64,000 bases of DNA, from IMG/VR virus record IMGVR_UViG_3300034101_006325, positions 124,001 to 188,000 of that record, one strand, 5' to 3'. This DNA comes from a virus. The position numbers and the translations under genes are program-made. This document shows, piece by piece, positions 2,321 to 7,473 of the stretch. Position 1 is the first letter of the stretch. Each line of letters starts with the position of its first letter. The notes below the pieces were generated by a model that saw only the letters and a program-made list of their open reading frames with translations, made no database searches and was not told the DNA's origin.

Positions 2321-2626
2321 TTATTCAAACTGAATTACTTTACTCACAAATTGACGATTCTGAACAGAAATTTCAATCTGATTTTTTGTAGGTCTCCAAC
2401 CTTTTTCCCATTCTACCTTGTGTGAATAAGCCCAAGTATCTGCACACGTTGAACAACAACCAAATTTTTTATGTGATTCTTCATCATCTTTTGTTGAATA
2501 TCTAATTTCACAGACATCACAAAAAATAGGTGTGTATTTTTTTTCATCGAAATTTTCAGGAATTATAACGCTATAATCCTCACAAATTTTTATCTTTCTA
2601 TTTCTTGTATAAGGTGACCACGTCAT
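2321..2626 (-). CDS. Small zinc-ribbon-like protein
   Basis: A 101-residue protein with two cysteine knuckles: CDVC around residues 36-39 and CCSTC around 57-61. These would bind one zinc ion in a rubredoxin or zinc-ribbon arrangement. The rest is rich in charged and aromatic residues (KVEWEKGWRPT). It starts four bases before the SbcC-like gene ends (ATGA overlap) and so belongs to the same leftward operon. A nucleic-acid-binding or regulatory role is possible, but only the metal site is visible. Confidence 0.75.
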   Translation of the reverse strand: MTWSPYTRNRKIKICEDYSVIIPENFDEKKYTPIFCDVCEIRYSTKDDEESHKKFGCCSTCADTWAYSHKVEWEKGWRPTKNQIEISVQNRQFVSKVIQFE

Positions 2627-5208
2627 TGTAGATCTCCGAAAATAATTTGTGCGTCTTTTTCAACCTTGGTTATGTCTAAAACATGATCGACAACGTCTTT
2701 GATGCCATCAACATGGGTTATAACAATAATAACCTTAAAATATCTTTTAAGAGATGTAAGCAATCTATTACATGATTCAACAGCAGAATCATCTAGAGTT
2801 CCGAACCCTTCATCTATAATAAAAAGATCTGGTTTTGGAAGAGAAGAAATATTAATCATGGCAACTCTAACTGCAAGAGAAGTTATTGTCTTTTCCATTC
2901 CTGAACAGAGTTCTATTATTCTTCTAGAATCACCATAATTAATGTAAATTTCGGTTGTGTCGGAGTCTTCTTCGTTCTCTAGCTCAACAGAAAAATCGAC
3001 TATTCCTTGCAATATTTTTGCAATTTCAGAATTTATTGCAGGAAGTTGTGAACGTGTAACAGCAAGTGGAATTCCTTTCTTAGAAAAAGCAGAAACAATT
3101 ATTTCGTTAACCTTGAGCTCCTCTAAAATTTTGTCTCTATTTAGTTTTTCTTCTATAAATTTTTCCAAATTAGCATTTAATTTGCCTTGCTGAGATGCAA
3201 TTTCCATTTTTTTAGAATCAATATTGTCAATTAATTTAGACAAAACTTCTAATTTTTCTTTGATAGAAACAGCCTCTATATTTTCTTGATTTTTTAAAGA
3301 CTGTTCTAGATTACCAAGGCGCAATCTAGCGCTTTGCAGTTCGGAAAAAATTCCATCCGATATAGACTTCTTTTTTAGATAATCATTTTCTTTTTTAGAT
3401 ACCTCAAATTTTAACTTTATCTCTAAGTCAATTAATTTCTCAATTTTTTCAAGTCTATCGATAAATCCACTTGATGTTATTGAATCTAAATTTTCGACTG
3501 CTTTATCAAGATTTGACTTAGCAAGTTTTACAGAATTAATTTGAATAATTTGCTTTTCTTTGTTGACATGAGCGTCTTTAATAAATTTGCAAGTAGGGTA
3601 TTGGTCGCCACAAGGAACTTCATCAAGTATCTTTAAAGACTTTTTTTGCTGTTCAAGAATAGATTCTTCTTTTTCAAAATTATGTCTAAGCGTTAAAAGA
3701 GAAGTTTCAAGTTGTCGATACTGCTCTTTTCTTTTCTTTAGATCTTCAATGTCATTGTTGTCTTTTACATCGGAGATCTTCTCAAGTTTAAGATTGACTT
3801 CAATAATTTCTTGTTGAAGTTTTTCAACTTGCTCAATAGACTGGTCATAGTTTGTCTGCAATTGATTAATTTTTTGTCTTAACGCATCAAGTGTTTCTTT
3901 TGAAACTGCAACGTATGGTCCTAATTTACTGATTTCTGATTGAAGACGTGAGTATTCAGCTCTTTTTTCTTCAGCATCTTGACTTAGATTTTTAAGATCT
4001 AATTTTGCTTTTTCAATATCATTTTTAGTTTGGTCAATTAGGACTGACCAATCTCTATCCGGGTAATTTTTTAATTGTGATTTTGAAGCACTTGCTTCTT
4101 TATTGGCAATTTCATGCATTCTATCAAAAATGTCAAGATCTAAAAATTTAGAAAGAATTGCTCTCCTCTTGGCAGATCCTTGAGATATGAACTGATTAAT
4201 TTCTCCTTGAGCAGAAAGAGAAGTCATTAGAAAATCTTCGTGACTTCCAATTAAATTTTTAATAATTTTTTCAGTATCGGTTCTCTGCTCTCCGTTTAAT
4301 TCGTCTACTTCACCATCTTCTTTCATCCTGTAGACATTTAAAGAAGTGGTCGCGCTAATTCCTTTTTTAGACTCAGACTTTGTTGTTTGACGCTCAATAA
4401 TGTAGTCTGTTCCACTATGATTAATGATCGCTCTTGCTGAACAATAAGGTTTTCTAATATTGCATATGTGAATATTCTTCATTGGACCACGATCAGTGGT
4501 ATTAAACAAAGCATACATGATCGTTCCAACAATAGAAGATTTTCCGATTCTATTGGCTCCAAATATTCCAACAATTCCATTGATTGCATCAAAATTTATA
4601 TAATTTTTTTCTCCATAAGAAAAAACATTGTTAAAATTAAGATGTCTTAAAGACCACTTAGAATTTCTAAGTACTTCTTCGTTAGAAGCAACAATAGATA
4701 ATATCTTTTTAATTGAGTCAGAAGTTTTAGTCCATGTTTCTTCAGAAAAATTAGAATTTTTATGATGATCTTTGACCAATTTTAAAAGAACATCAGGAGA
4801 CCTAAGGTCAGACTTGGCCAAAGATGCAGCCCCAGCTTTGACTACAGACCGATCGATTGTAACGTCTGACTTAAATGTTATTTCAGAAGCACCTTTTGAA
4901 TATAGAACAGAATTAATTGATTGAATTTCTTTTTGAGTAACGTGAGAGTTAGATCTAATTCTGTATCTTGTTCCCTTTGGATAATTTTTAGATGCTTTTA
5001 AAAGTTCGTCTAACTCTCCTGTCCACGTCAGAGTTACAAAAGGTTTTGGATTTGGCAATTTTTTAAAATTAATTGACCAATCTTCTGATGACTCAATATC
5101 CCACAATAGATAACCATGATCTAGGTCTTCAGCATAATTTTGTTGCAAAGGAGTTCCTGGATATGCAATCCAGGGTTTCTTTACCTTTATTTTTATTTTT
5201 TTGCCCAT
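2623..5208 (-). CDS. SbcC/gp46-like recombination ATPase with an N-terminal SbcD-type capping domain
   Basis: This is the ATPase subunit of the Mre11-Rad50/gp46-gp47 complex, which resects DNA ends for recombination-dependent replication. In order: residues 1 to about 120 look like an SbcD/Mre11 capping domain (AYPGTPLQQNYAEDLDHGY, then LLWDIE). Walker A GANRIGKSS lies at about 217-225. A long coiled coil follows, with an apical cysteine pair at about 533 and 540 (PCGDQYPTCKF), which is a CX6C form rather than the common CXXC zinc hook. A second coiled coil comes next, then the ABC signature ELCSGMEK and Walker B DLFIIDEGFG near the C-terminus. Canonical SbcC has Walker A within the first 40 residues, so the roughly 190-residue extension is unusual. 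The reading frame is the same as that of the upstream SbcD core, separated by one TAA and four codons. No strong ribosome binding site precedes the ATG, so translation may depend on termination and restart. Confidence 0.92.
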   Translation of the reverse strand: MGKKIKIKVKKPWIAYPGTPLQQNYAEDLDHGYLLWDIESSEDWSINFKKLPNPKPFVTLTWTGELDELLKASKNYPKGTRYRIRSNSHVTQKEIQSINSVLYSKGASEITFKSDVTIDRSVVKAGAASLAKSDLRSPDVLLKLVKDHHKNSNFSEETWTKTSDSIKKILSIVASNEEVLRNSKWSLRHLNFNNVFSYGEKNYINFDAINGIVGIFGANRIGKSSIVGTIMYALFNTTDRGPMKNIHICNIRKPYCSARAIINHSGTDYIIERQTTKSESKKGISATTSLNVYRMKEDGEVDELNGEQRTDTEKIIKNLIGSHEDFLMTSLSAQGEINQFISQGSAKRRAILSKFLDLDIFDRMHEIANKEASASKSQLKNYPDRDWSVLIDQTKNDIEKAKLDLKNLSQDAEEKRAEYSRLQSEISKLGPYVAVSKETLDALRQKINQLQTNYDQSIEQVEKLQQEIIEVNLKLEKISDVKDNNDIEDLKKRKEQYRQLETSLLTLRHNFEKEESILEQQKKSLKILDEVPCGDQYPTCKFIKDAHVNKEKQIIQINSVKLAKSNLDKAVENLDSITSSGFIDRLEKIEKLIDLEIKLKFEVSKKENDYLKKKSISDGIFSELQSARLRLGNLEQSLKNQENIEAVSIKEKLEVLSKLIDNIDSKKMEIASQQGKLNANLEKFIEEKLNRDKILEELKVNEIIVSAFSKKGIPLAVTRSQLPAINSEIAKILQGIVDFSVELENEEDSDTTEIYINYGDSRRIIELCSGMEKTITSLAVRVAMINISSLPKPDLFIIDEGFGTLDDSAVESCNRLLTSLKRYFKVIIVITHVDGIKDVVDHVLDITKVEKDAQIIFGDLQ

Positions 5209-5223
5209 GTGAATTGATCTTTA
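5206..5223 (-). other. Single in-frame TAA between the SbcD core and the SbcD-cap/SbcC ORF
   Basis: Read leftward, the SbcD core ends GTT GAA TAA. It is followed in the same frame by AGA TCA ATT CAC and then the ATG of the next ORF. Suppression of this one stop would give a continuous polypeptide of about 1,080 residues containing nuclease core, cap and ATPase. The break falls in the segment between the last nuclease metal motif (GDIH) and the capping motif (AYPG). Possible explanations are a genuine gene split with reinitiation, programmed readthrough, or a recent nonsense mutation or base-call error. Confidence 0.85.
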
Positions 5224-5865
5224 TTCAACAATTGTGCAGCCTGGATATTTTGACAATTCTTCTTCTTCTATTTCGATGGTTACTTCTCTAAAGTCCAAAA
5301 ATTGCATTTTGTGTATGTCTCCCAGAAGTACAAAATCAAAGTCTTTGAAAAATTCGACTGTTAAACCTTCTTCTATATTCCAGCCTGTTTCACTTACTGA
5401 TCCATTGACAGGCCCATGATAGCAAGCAATATTAACATCGCCTTTTATGGGTTTTACATTCTTCCAGCCTTCTTCGTCAAAAAGGCTGAAGACGCACAGG
5501 TTGTATCCTTTTTGAATTTCAAAGACTCCGCTTTTTTTGTAAAGAAAAATTCTAGGATTGTTAAGCGCAGAAACTATTGGTGAAACTGCATCTTGTCTAG
5601 ATAAATTAACTAGATTGCCGTCATGATTTCCTAGTGTTAAATGAACAGGTGCAATTTTGCTCATTGCATCTAACCACCAAGTTAGATGCTCAATATATTC
5701 AGGTGATATTCCTGTTGTTTTAGTATGAAAAATGTCACCACCCACAAAAATGTGATTCACACTATTTTTTTTGCAATCATTAATGAATGCTGTAAAAACT
5801 TCTCTATACTCGTCATGACGAGTCAAGCCTCGCCAGTGAACGTCTGCAGTATGTGCGATTCGCAT
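5221..5865 (-). CDS. SbcD/gp47-like nuclease, catalytic core only
   Basis: This is the Mre11-type metallophosphoesterase that partners SbcC/gp46. I place the start at ATG 5865 (MRIAHTADVHW), the canonical Mre11 N-terminus. A TTG three codons upstream is possible. All metal-binding motifs are present: DVH near residue 9, GGDIFH, LGNHD, YHGP and GDIHK near residue 183. The protein stops after 214 residues at SKYPGCTIVE, before the capping domain, whereas complete family members usually run past 330 residues. The missing cap is found at the front of the next gene in the same frame. The primase lies just upstream, so the group forms a replication-recombination operon. Confidence 0.9.
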   Translation of the reverse strand: MRIAHTADVHWRGLTRHDEYREVFTAFINDCKKNSVNHIFVGGDIFHTKTTGISPEYIEHLTWWLDAMSKIAPVHLTLGNHDGNLVNLSRQDAVSPIVSALNNPRIFLYKKSGVFEIQKGYNLCVFSLFDEEGWKNVKPIKGDVNIACYHGPVNGSVSETGWNIEEGLTVEFFKDFDFVLLGDIHKMQFLDFREVTIEIEEEELSKYPGCTIVE

Positions 5866-5903: not shown

Positions 5904-6887
5904 TTAGATGCTAAATCTAATTTCAGTTGCTTTCTTCATTTTTCTTAAAAAATCATCTTCCCAATTTATTATTTTCGCATCAGATAGTGCGTTCTCGAAT
6001 TCCAACTTAGACATATTTCCGGGATCTTTCCACTGTCTAACGTCAACAACTAAAACATCAATGTTATATTCCATTAATTTTTTTGCAATTTTTGGAGTTT
6101 TCTTATCCCACATGTCACCATCGAGTGCCAACCAAATAGGCGTATTATTTAAAAGAATTTTATTAAATATTTCATGTCTTTCGTCCAGATCAGACCCCAG
6201 CAAAGCTGTGGAATTTTCAGGGCATTTAACCAAATCAAATGCACCTTCTACTAGAACAAGTCTCTTCTGCCAGTCCAAGTTAATTTCATTAAAAACTATA
6301 GGATTTTTATCAACATCAGGATTGTCGTACTTGGGTTTTTTATCTTTGTCAATTGCTCTTGCTACAAAATAGTTTAAATTTCCTAGTGAGTCAAAAGAAG
6401 GCATGATCAACCTTCTTTTCCAACGAGGTTCATCAGAAATTCCTAACTTAAAATACCATGCATCTTTGTCAGTTAATCCTCTCGAATAAAGATAACGCCA
6501 CGCTGCCTTGACATCAGGATCTAAATCGTTTGCAAGAGAAAGAAGTTTAAAATCTTTTGGAAGACAAATTTTTTGTTTTTCTTCTTTTTCTCCTGTGACT
6601 AGTCGAGAAGTCCCGGGAGATATTCCGAACATTTCCTTGAAAGTTTCAAGTTGAAGTTGTGTACCGTATTTCCTGATGAGTGGAATAATTGTTCTTGATT
6701 TCCATCCACATACCCAGCAATGGTTGGCCGACGTATCTGTTCTAATTGAAAGTTTCTTTTTAGATTGGTCAGAAGGCGCACATATGGGGCAGCGTACGTC
6801 AAAATTAATTCCATTGGAAGATACGTGACCTTTGCCAAAGATAGATTCAAAAAAAATAATGCTGTCAGAGACAGAACGGATTCCCAC
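5904..6887 (-). CDS. DnaG-type DNA primase
   Basis: Makes RNA primers for lagging-strand synthesis. The 327 residues contain an N-terminal zinc-binding domain with CPIC at 33-36 and CWVC at 57-60. A TOPRIM catalytic domain follows, with VLVEGAFDLV (Glu214) and WLALDGDMW (Asp256 and Asp258). There is no helicase domain, so this is a stand-alone primase. Its helicase partner must lie outside the window, since the DinG-like protein at 24-25.6 kb is not of the replicative type. The start codon is GTG with an AGGA seven bases upstream. A 96-residue ORF overlapping the N-terminal part in another frame is a shadow. Confidence 0.9.
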   Translation of the reverse strand: MGIRSVSDSIIFFESIFGKGHVSSNGINFDVRCPICAPSDQSKKKLSIRTDTSANHCWVCGWKSRTIIPLIRKYGTQLQLETFKEMFGISPGTSRLVTGEKEEKQKICLPKDFKLLSLANDLDPDVKAAWRYLYSRGLTDKDAWYFKLGISDEPRWKRRLIMPSFDSLGNLNYFVARAIDKDKKPKYDNPDVDKNPIVFNEINLDWQKRLVLVEGAFDLVKCPENSTALLGSDLDERHEIFNKILLNNTPIWLALDGDMWDKKTPKIAKKLMEYNIDVLVVDVRQWKDPGNMSKLEFENALSDAKIINWEDDFLRKMKKATEIRFSI

Positions 6888-6918
6888 ATAATTATCCTAA
6901 CAAATAATCATGAGATGT

Positions 6919-7473
6919 TCATAAGAGGCATGCAGCCCTGGCTATCACATATGCATCCGTAGCATCTCGACTCCAGTCTACTGGTTCTCCATTTTTCTTC
7001 TTTGGCCATACAACATGTTTTAAGTCATTCTCTGACATGTATCTAAAAACTTGTTCTTTGCCATTTATGCCCGCAATGGACGTCTTCTGCAATTTTATTC
7101 CGCATGATTTTCTTGCTGTTGATGAAGCTATGTACTGAGGATCTACACCAAATATTCCTCTTGAAATATACGAGACAATGCCATTGAATCTCATCAGCGT
7201 AGTTATCGTTGCTGCGGAAGACATTCCCGCCCTGAAACCCATCAGTGGTTCCTCAAGATAGACTTTGTAGTCTCCTGGAAATTTATTTTTCAAATCACCG
7301 AGGGATCTTGATGTAAAATCTGCCTTATCCCAAAGTGTATTGCACTTCTTGTATTCAATCCTATCGAGATAAATAATGTGCGATCCTGAGTCATCCCCTG
7401 CTTTGTTTGCATCGAGTATTGACACACCTGTCACAGATGTCGAAACATCCAAGCCTATGATATAGTTCTTCAC
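6919..7473 (-). CDS. RuvC-like RNase H-fold endonuclease
   Basis: A probable Holliday-junction or branched-DNA resolvase that debranches replicated phage DNA before packaging. The RNase H fold is visible from MKNYIIGLDVSTSVTG (Asp9 at the end of strand 1), VYLEEPL (Glu74/75) and the C-terminal helix SRDATDAYVIARAA (Asp170 and Asp173). These are the four acidic ligands expected. At 184 residues the size fits RuvC. The start codon is GTG. It is followed by the primase 31 bases downstream. T4 uses the unrelated endonuclease VII (gp49), so this is a different solution to the same task. Its exact substrate cannot be read from the sequence. Confidence 0.85.
   Translation of the reverse strand: MKNYIIGLDVSTSVTGVSILDANKAGDDSGSHIIYLDRIEYKKCNTLWDKADFTSRSLGDLKNKFPGDYKVYLEEPLMGFRAGMSSAATITTLMRFNGIVSYISRGIFGVDPQYIASSTARKSCGIKLQKTSIAGINGKEQVFRYMSENDLKHVVWPKKKNGEPVDWSRDATDAYVIARAACLL

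Follow-up and report, generated by a model that had tools for sequence, protein, structure and literature searches.

A homing-endonuclease-linked cassette probably split the fused SbcD-SbcC genes of phages and left complementary charged ends

Splitting of a gene by a homing-endonuclease gene (HEG) with the function of its product kept is described, in the parts of one account that deal with it, as known for nrdA of Aeromonas phage Aeh1 and as suggested for a few others; the split Aeh1 ribonucleotide reductase (NrdA) is said there to be fully functional (PMC2988022). Fusion proteins that join Mre11 to Rad50 have been reported from Mimivirus, phages and plasmids, with aquatic viruses and Bacillus phage 0305phi8-36 named in the relevant sections (Yoshida et al., PMC3175470). 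Here we analyze a 64,000-base stretch of viral DNA (hereafter the window), bases 124001-188000 of a 200,303-base virus record (IMGVR_UViG_3300034101_006325), in which an SbcD/Mre11-like nuclease gene is followed by an SbcC/Rad50-like gene that begins with the SbcD capping domain. We propose, with a probability of about three in four, that an HEG-linked cassette breaks up fused Mre11-Rad50 genes and equips the two halves with complementary ends through which they reassemble, and that the window holds an old, nuclease-free copy of it. We found no description of an HEG-split SbcD/SbcC gene in the open-licence literature; new here are the gene targeted, how often it is split, the series of relics and the matched ends.

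The split gene and its fused relatives

A preliminary description of this locus, made from the letters of the window, had given positions for two open reading frames (ORFs), for the TAA that ends the first and for the four codons, RSIH, that would be read beyond it, and all of these were correct on recheck (Table 1). The SbcD half matches Pfam Metallophos (PF00149, E 5.6e-15) and the PHROG SbcD-like family (E 3.4e-18), and D8, H10, D44, N80, H81, H150 and the GDIH at 182-185, which we take to be the metal ligands of the family, are invariant across 11 relatives. The second ORF had been said to carry an SbcC ATPase, as matches to Pfam AAA_23 (E 1.7e-11) and SMC_N (E 1.5e-10) and to PHROG SbcC-like (E 5e-55) bear out; a further match, to SbcC_Walker_B (E 0.0022), is below the Pfam cut-off. 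Compared by eye with a zinc hook, the segment VPCGDQYPTCKF of the SbcC half has two cysteines six residues apart, not a CXXC.

To place this arrangement among its relatives, we ran a hidden Markov model (HMM) classifier on the window and 163 related loci (designated by L numbers below). It called 116 genes continuous, 47 split (window included) and one, L210, as having a core with no cap found, which we excluded from the split and fused counts. With near-copies removed there were 113 distinct genes, 83 SbcD-SbcC fusions and 30 splits, the window included. Both forms that the preliminary description had envisaged in related phages, a continuous ORF and the same split, were therefore found, and the continuous fusion is the commoner form. 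Complete fused genes among 80 loci encode 1043-1054 amino acids (aa); the continuous form has 1066 aa in Microcystis phage Mel-JY01 and 1202 aa in LR756501. A scan of genome contigs gave 16 loci, of which L239 alone was classified, the other 15 being partial or distant matches that were left out; L239 is a fused SbcD-SbcC gene on a contig binned as an Acidiferrobacteraceae metagenome-assembled genome (PBOB01000007.1), perhaps a phage contig.

The break point is identical in all 30 distinct splits, and each of them carries two additions, an acidic tail at the end of the SbcD half and a basic leader at the start of the SbcC half, that occur in none of the fused genes classified. Net charge is negative for 30 of 30 tails and positive for 30 of 30 leaders. 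The spacing from GDIH to the YPG of the cap is 11-20 residues in fused genes, whereas in split genes the SbcD half runs on for 28-37 residues past GDIH and the SbcC half has its leader besides. The motif SKYPGCTIVE, which had been read as the end of the SbcD core, belongs instead to this extra tail, found in split genes alone. Because the split point recurs far more often than chance would allow and is accompanied by matching added ends, we regard the stop as a real gene boundary.

Table 1. Features of the split SbcD-SbcC gene, numbered from the first base of the window
Feature	Positions	Strand	Description	Basis
SbcD/Mre11-like nuclease half	5221..5865	minus	214 aa from ATG; TAA stop 5221-5223	ORF and translation
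Acidic tail REVTIEIEEEELSKYPGCTIVE	5224..5289	minus	residues 193-214 of SbcD half; split genes only	junction alignments
Gap between stop and start	5209..5220	minus	12 bases; RSIH (four codons) if read through, same frame	
Cap-SbcC half	2623..5208	minus	861 aa from ATG; leader, SbcD capping domain, linker helices, SbcC/Rad50-like ATPase	
Basic leader MGKKIKIKVKKPW	5170..5208	minus	residues 1-13 of SbcC half; split genes only	
Predicted SbcD/Mre11 capping domain	4867..5208	minus	about residues 1-114 of SbcC half	joined model vs 4m0v, 7dog

Endonuclease-like genes, relics and cassette movement

The gap in the window lies where relatives hold an endonuclease-like gene or the relic of one, a feature that the preliminary description had overlooked, together with the tail and leader and the commonness of continuous fusions. 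In L005/L006, a 924-base gap contains a 300-aa ORF that matches a PHROG homing endonuclease (E 4.1e-17) and has Vsr-like similarity below the Pfam cut-off. A relative of this L006 HEG (39% identity) occupies the same gap in L084, a 201-kb contig, and another relative does so in L256-L258; in both cases tail and leader are of the same type, although the SbcD halves are very divergent. A nuclease of a different type, a TnsA-like ORF (Pfam E 5.8e-6), fills the same gap at 2040-2957 of L163 (LR756508, a 484-kb phage), again with a similar tail. Shorter gaps retain pieces of the L006 gap sequence: both of its ends in the 137 bases of L002/L003, its 3' end in the 76 bases of L004, and its first 27 bases in the 42 bases of L007/L008. 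None of 500 shuffles scored as well as the relics in L002, L004 and L008.

In close pairs of fused and split loci, the DNA is largely collinear apart from the split, which has the form of an insertion. The split L004 and the fused L039 are 84-89% identical over ~11 kb, in three stretches separated by one break at the junction and one other near L004 3814-3911; the split L002 and the fused L031 share 87-88% identity over 7.6 kb, and among the matches listed the junction is the sole break. In the 90 bases that directly follow the YPG codon, L004 is 80% identical to L006 and 77% to its sister L039, and in later bins it is 83-93% identical to L039 versus 41-77% to L006, a pattern as expected if a short tract had been co-converted. 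Within the cassette, third codon positions are identical at 35 of 38 sites between L004 and L006, 37 of 38 between L002 and L006 and 34 of 38 between L002 and L004 (89-97%), whereas in the remainder of the same genes the fractions are 0.38, 0.41 and 0.46, respectively. For these pairs, none of 482 other segments of the same size matches as closely. By these comparisons, the cassette of the three loci has evidently moved recently and on its own.

Clade tests for SbcC and for the SbcD core used a tree of 33 rows that we chose from 85. In the SbcC tree each of three splits pairs with a fused gene (L004 with L039, L002 with L031, the window with L074), and a single clade of window-type splits is rejected (approximately unbiased test, p-AU 3.9e-6). 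A tree of the cap (83 rows, short ones dropped) has nine changes between the fused and split states, at least seven of them forced by well-supported branches; a core tree (81 rows) has seven, at least three of them so forced, the cores of L163 and L164, for which the motif cut misfired, having been left out of the core trees.

Both halves of the gene also look to be under purifying selection. Between the window and five split relatives, nonsynonymous divergence (Ka) is 0.16-0.21 in the SbcD half and 0.34-0.43 in the SbcC half, and synonymous divergence (Ks) in both exceeds 1.7 or is saturated.

Several further observations concern HEG-like genes and gaps of this kind. L062 has a 103-aa ORF with no family match between its split halves (6651-6962). 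The SbcD/SbcC gene of L257 (3248-8891; also L256 and L258) is seemingly in at least four pieces, namely the SbcD core, a short leader-cap fragment, the remainder of the cap as far as the P-loop, and the ATPase; two of its gaps contain HEG-like ORFs, and the break at the P-loop is flanked by intein-like ends. As judged by eye, an HEG relative in L085 (2515-5800) lies between apparent split-intein halves, probably in a ribonucleotide reductase, and HEG relatives in L088, L089, L101 and L105 split what appears to be a CCA-adding or poly(A)-polymerase-type nucleotidyltransferase gene. In a loose motif scan, ORFs near HEG relatives in L267 (27-884) and L269 (301-957) had a tail-like motif (KKIKKEDIETYLNEGWVKGR and similar), possibly a hint at where the tail came from and to be taken as a lead only. 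The genome that contains the window has a further ORF of the phrog_3339 homing-endonuclease family outside the window, at 113089-114522 of contig C1 (477 aa), which adjoins a capsid-like gene. Pfam scans of five peptides gave nothing useful.

The capping domain and a model of the joint

The preliminary description had proposed that the second ORF begins with the capping domain missing from the first. We modeled residues 1-409 of the read-through product with AlphaFold, using a 54-row alignment (A4) of fused rows and in-frame read-through rows. An earlier fold alignment (A2) with separate SbcD-only and SbcC-only rows was dropped in favor of A4 because it placed the KYPGC of the tail on the AYPG of the cap. 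The joined model had a mean predicted local distance difference test score (pLDDT) of 88.3 and a predicted template-modeling score (pTM) of 0.77, and its best 27 matches in the PDB were Mre11 or SbcD in every case. In VIA-align comparisons, residues 1-333 of the model aligned to E. coli SbcD (4m0v) with Z 25.0 and a root-mean-square deviation (rmsd) of 3.2 over 285 residues, and the model aligned to the nuclease and capping domains of S. aureus SbcD (7dog) with Z 24.8 and rmsd 3.3 over 275 residues. Since nuclease and cap are both aligned over model residues 1-333, the cap should correspond to about residues 1-114 of the second ORF. The fold comparison thus confirms, for the modeled structure, that the SbcD capping domain sits on the SbcC half, and of the possibilities first raised for this locus the rearranged pair, a nuclease core beside a cap-SbcC protein, is the one that proved right.

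In the same model, the tail forms a strand (188-200), a helix (201-206) and a second strand (211-218), and the leader forms a strand (221-235) next to the tail, each block with pLDDT 92-95. When the SbcD half was folded alone the tail had no strand and its block pLDDT was 62-79, the two models having been built on different alignments. The model suggests that the acidic tail and basic leader would pair at the boundary between core and cap and so hold the two chains together.

Proposed origin, alternatives and described systems

We suggest the following course of events. The ancestor would have been a one-piece SbcD-SbcC (Mre11-Rad50) fusion, into which a cassette was inserted between the last nuclease metal motif and the capping domain; the cassette would comprise an acidic tail terminated by a stop, a free-standing HEG, and a start codon with a basic leader. 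The HEG would cut unsplit alleles, and repair of the break would copy the cassette in, with short flanks co-converted. Later deletion of the HEG would leave the split and the two protein ends in place, and the window may represent an old copy in which 12 bases of the gap remain. The two proteins would be made separately from neighboring ORFs, the strand-helix-strand of the tail and the strand of the leader would combine into a single small sheet where core meets cap, and this sheet would keep the halves together as a working nuclease-ATPase.

Several results weigh against this account. Third positions in the cassette of the window are identical at 17-20 of 38 sites and are no more conserved than the rest; from so little excess we conclude that the split in the window would be old. 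The SbcD-core tree does not reject a single clade of window-type splits (p-AU 0.171), the short core giving a weak test. No HEG trace was detected in the gaps of the window (12 bases), L010 (24 bases) or L062 (307 bases), where 214, 227 and 96 of 500 shuffles, respectively, scored as well, so an HEG origin for the split in the window is argued from its relatives; likewise, no HEG-like gene was identified in the gap of a high-GC split clade. A survey of 80 HEG-relative loci, in which SbcD/SbcC is the host gene only at L084 and at L082/L083 (copies of L005/L006), turned up no such tail next to the HEG relatives at other genes, and the tail and leader may therefore be features of the insertion site rather than of the HEG. 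Finally, the halves are covalently linked in the joined model, and only 5 of its 54 alignment rows cover the joint.

These results bear on the alternative that survives best, in which the two-gene form with its tail and leader is old, stable and of HEG-free origin, HEGs used the gap later, and fused and split alleles were swapped by ordinary phage recombination. Such an origin would fit the empty gaps of the window and L010 and the absence of the tail beside HEG relatives elsewhere, as well as the likeness of tail and leader across deep lineages with different gap nucleases (L006, L084, L256, L163) and their presence in a clade whose stops and starts overlap by 4 bases and in which no HEG was identified. 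However, it sits poorly with the HEG pieces retained in the gaps of L002, L004 and L008, with the apparent recent movement of the L002/L004/L006 cassette by itself, and with the lack of a tail in the deepest fused relatives found and in SbcD structures. We consider an HEG-free origin unlikely, though worth keeping in view; it would alter the origin of the split and leave the present two-protein reading intact.

The remaining alternatives would make one protein of the two ORFs, or none. Programmed readthrough of the TAA to yield a single SbcD-SbcC fusion was raised in the preliminary description, which had observed that the second ORF is in the same frame as the first. The shared frame was confirmed but is uninformative, since 6 of the 30 splits (the window, L005/L006, L007/L008, L009/L010, L047 and L063), at most one in three, are in frame. 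Because the other 24 are out of frame, readthrough cannot be the shared mechanism; moreover, the L005/L006 gap has many stops in its frame, gaps range from 4-base stop/start overlaps to >900 bases, and tail and leader are conserved, all of which makes readthrough highly improbable.

HEGs often ride in introns or inteins, and the SbcC part of L257 is further broken by apparent intein halves at its P-loop, so one could suppose that the gap is an intron, or the two ends a split intein, and that splicing restores one continuous protein. We give this little credence: the gap in the window has only 12 bases and the tail and leader only ~22 and ~13 residues; stop and start overlap in many splits; Pfam gave no intein family for either half at E up to 1; and Rfam, which may miss divergent phage introns, gave no match in L002, L004, L005, L006 and L062 at the gathering threshold or in L084, L163, L256 and L006 at E up to 0.1.

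A sequencing error in a continuous gene, or a recent mutation that killed it, could be entertained because the TAA is known from the assembled sequence alone and the exact junction has no match in any other viral contig (in a search that may omit records very near the window's own), but a fusion broken by one stop is scarcely believable when the stop, tail, start and leader keep their position and sequence in 29 other distinct splits, unrelated ones among them, when a one-base error cannot create a tail and leader that fused genes are without, and when both halves show the low amino-acid change of apparent purifying selection. We conclude that the TAA at 5221-5223 is very unlikely to be either an error or a readthrough signal.

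A broader proposal, about as likely as not, is that tail and leader form a portable joint for self-assembly that moves together with homing endonucleases, spreads gene fission without splicing through the Mre11-Rad50 fusions of very different phages, and becomes part of a domesticated two-subunit enzyme once the nuclease is lost. Whatever its origin, this one gene offers a series that runs from empty and occupied sites to partly deleted and cleanly scarred ones, together with a split clade in which no nuclease was identified, which makes the survival of a core enzyme after being cut directly testable. Its natural charge-matched joints are a resource for split-protein design, and an Mre11 cap carried on a Rad50 subunit probes how cap and core must be linked. 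For annotation, a short 'SbcD' beside a long 'SbcC' is not necessarily a broken gene.

Four kinds of described system resemble this locus. T4-type phages likewise encode their Mre11-Rad50-like nuclease in two neighboring genes, gp47 and gp46, but the cap stays on gp47 (in Aeh1, a 342-aa gp47 with a separate gp46), whereas in the window it is on the SbcC half. The Mre11/Rad50 fusions, where described in PMC3175470, have the same domain order of nuclease core, cap and Rad50 ATPase in one chain; the gene in the window differs in being broken inside its SbcD part, between core and cap. Fractured phage genes with split inteins are also comparable in having a nuclease gene between their halves, and the L006 HEG is Vsr-like, below the Pfam cut-off. 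Dassa reportedly described such genes in 2009, with a free-standing nuclease gene between the two halves. L085 and L257 look to be of that kind, but there are no intein halves at the SbcD/SbcC junction, and no ligation would therefore be expected.

The nearest precedent is the NrdA of Aeromonas phage Aeh1, split by mobE. In nrdA-A/mobE/nrdA-B, too, a homing endonuclease lies where a gene that relatives have in one piece is divided, and each half bears an additional charged end, basic after NrdA-A and acidic before NrdA-B. The split NrdA is said, after work by Crona in 2011, to assemble through interaction domains derived from the mobile element. The present case differs in its target gene, in the HNH nuclease of Aeh1 and in the reversal of charge, with an acidic SbcD tail and a basic SbcC leader; the SbcD/SbcC split also recurs in many phages with a series of relics, and in the window it stands without a nuclease.

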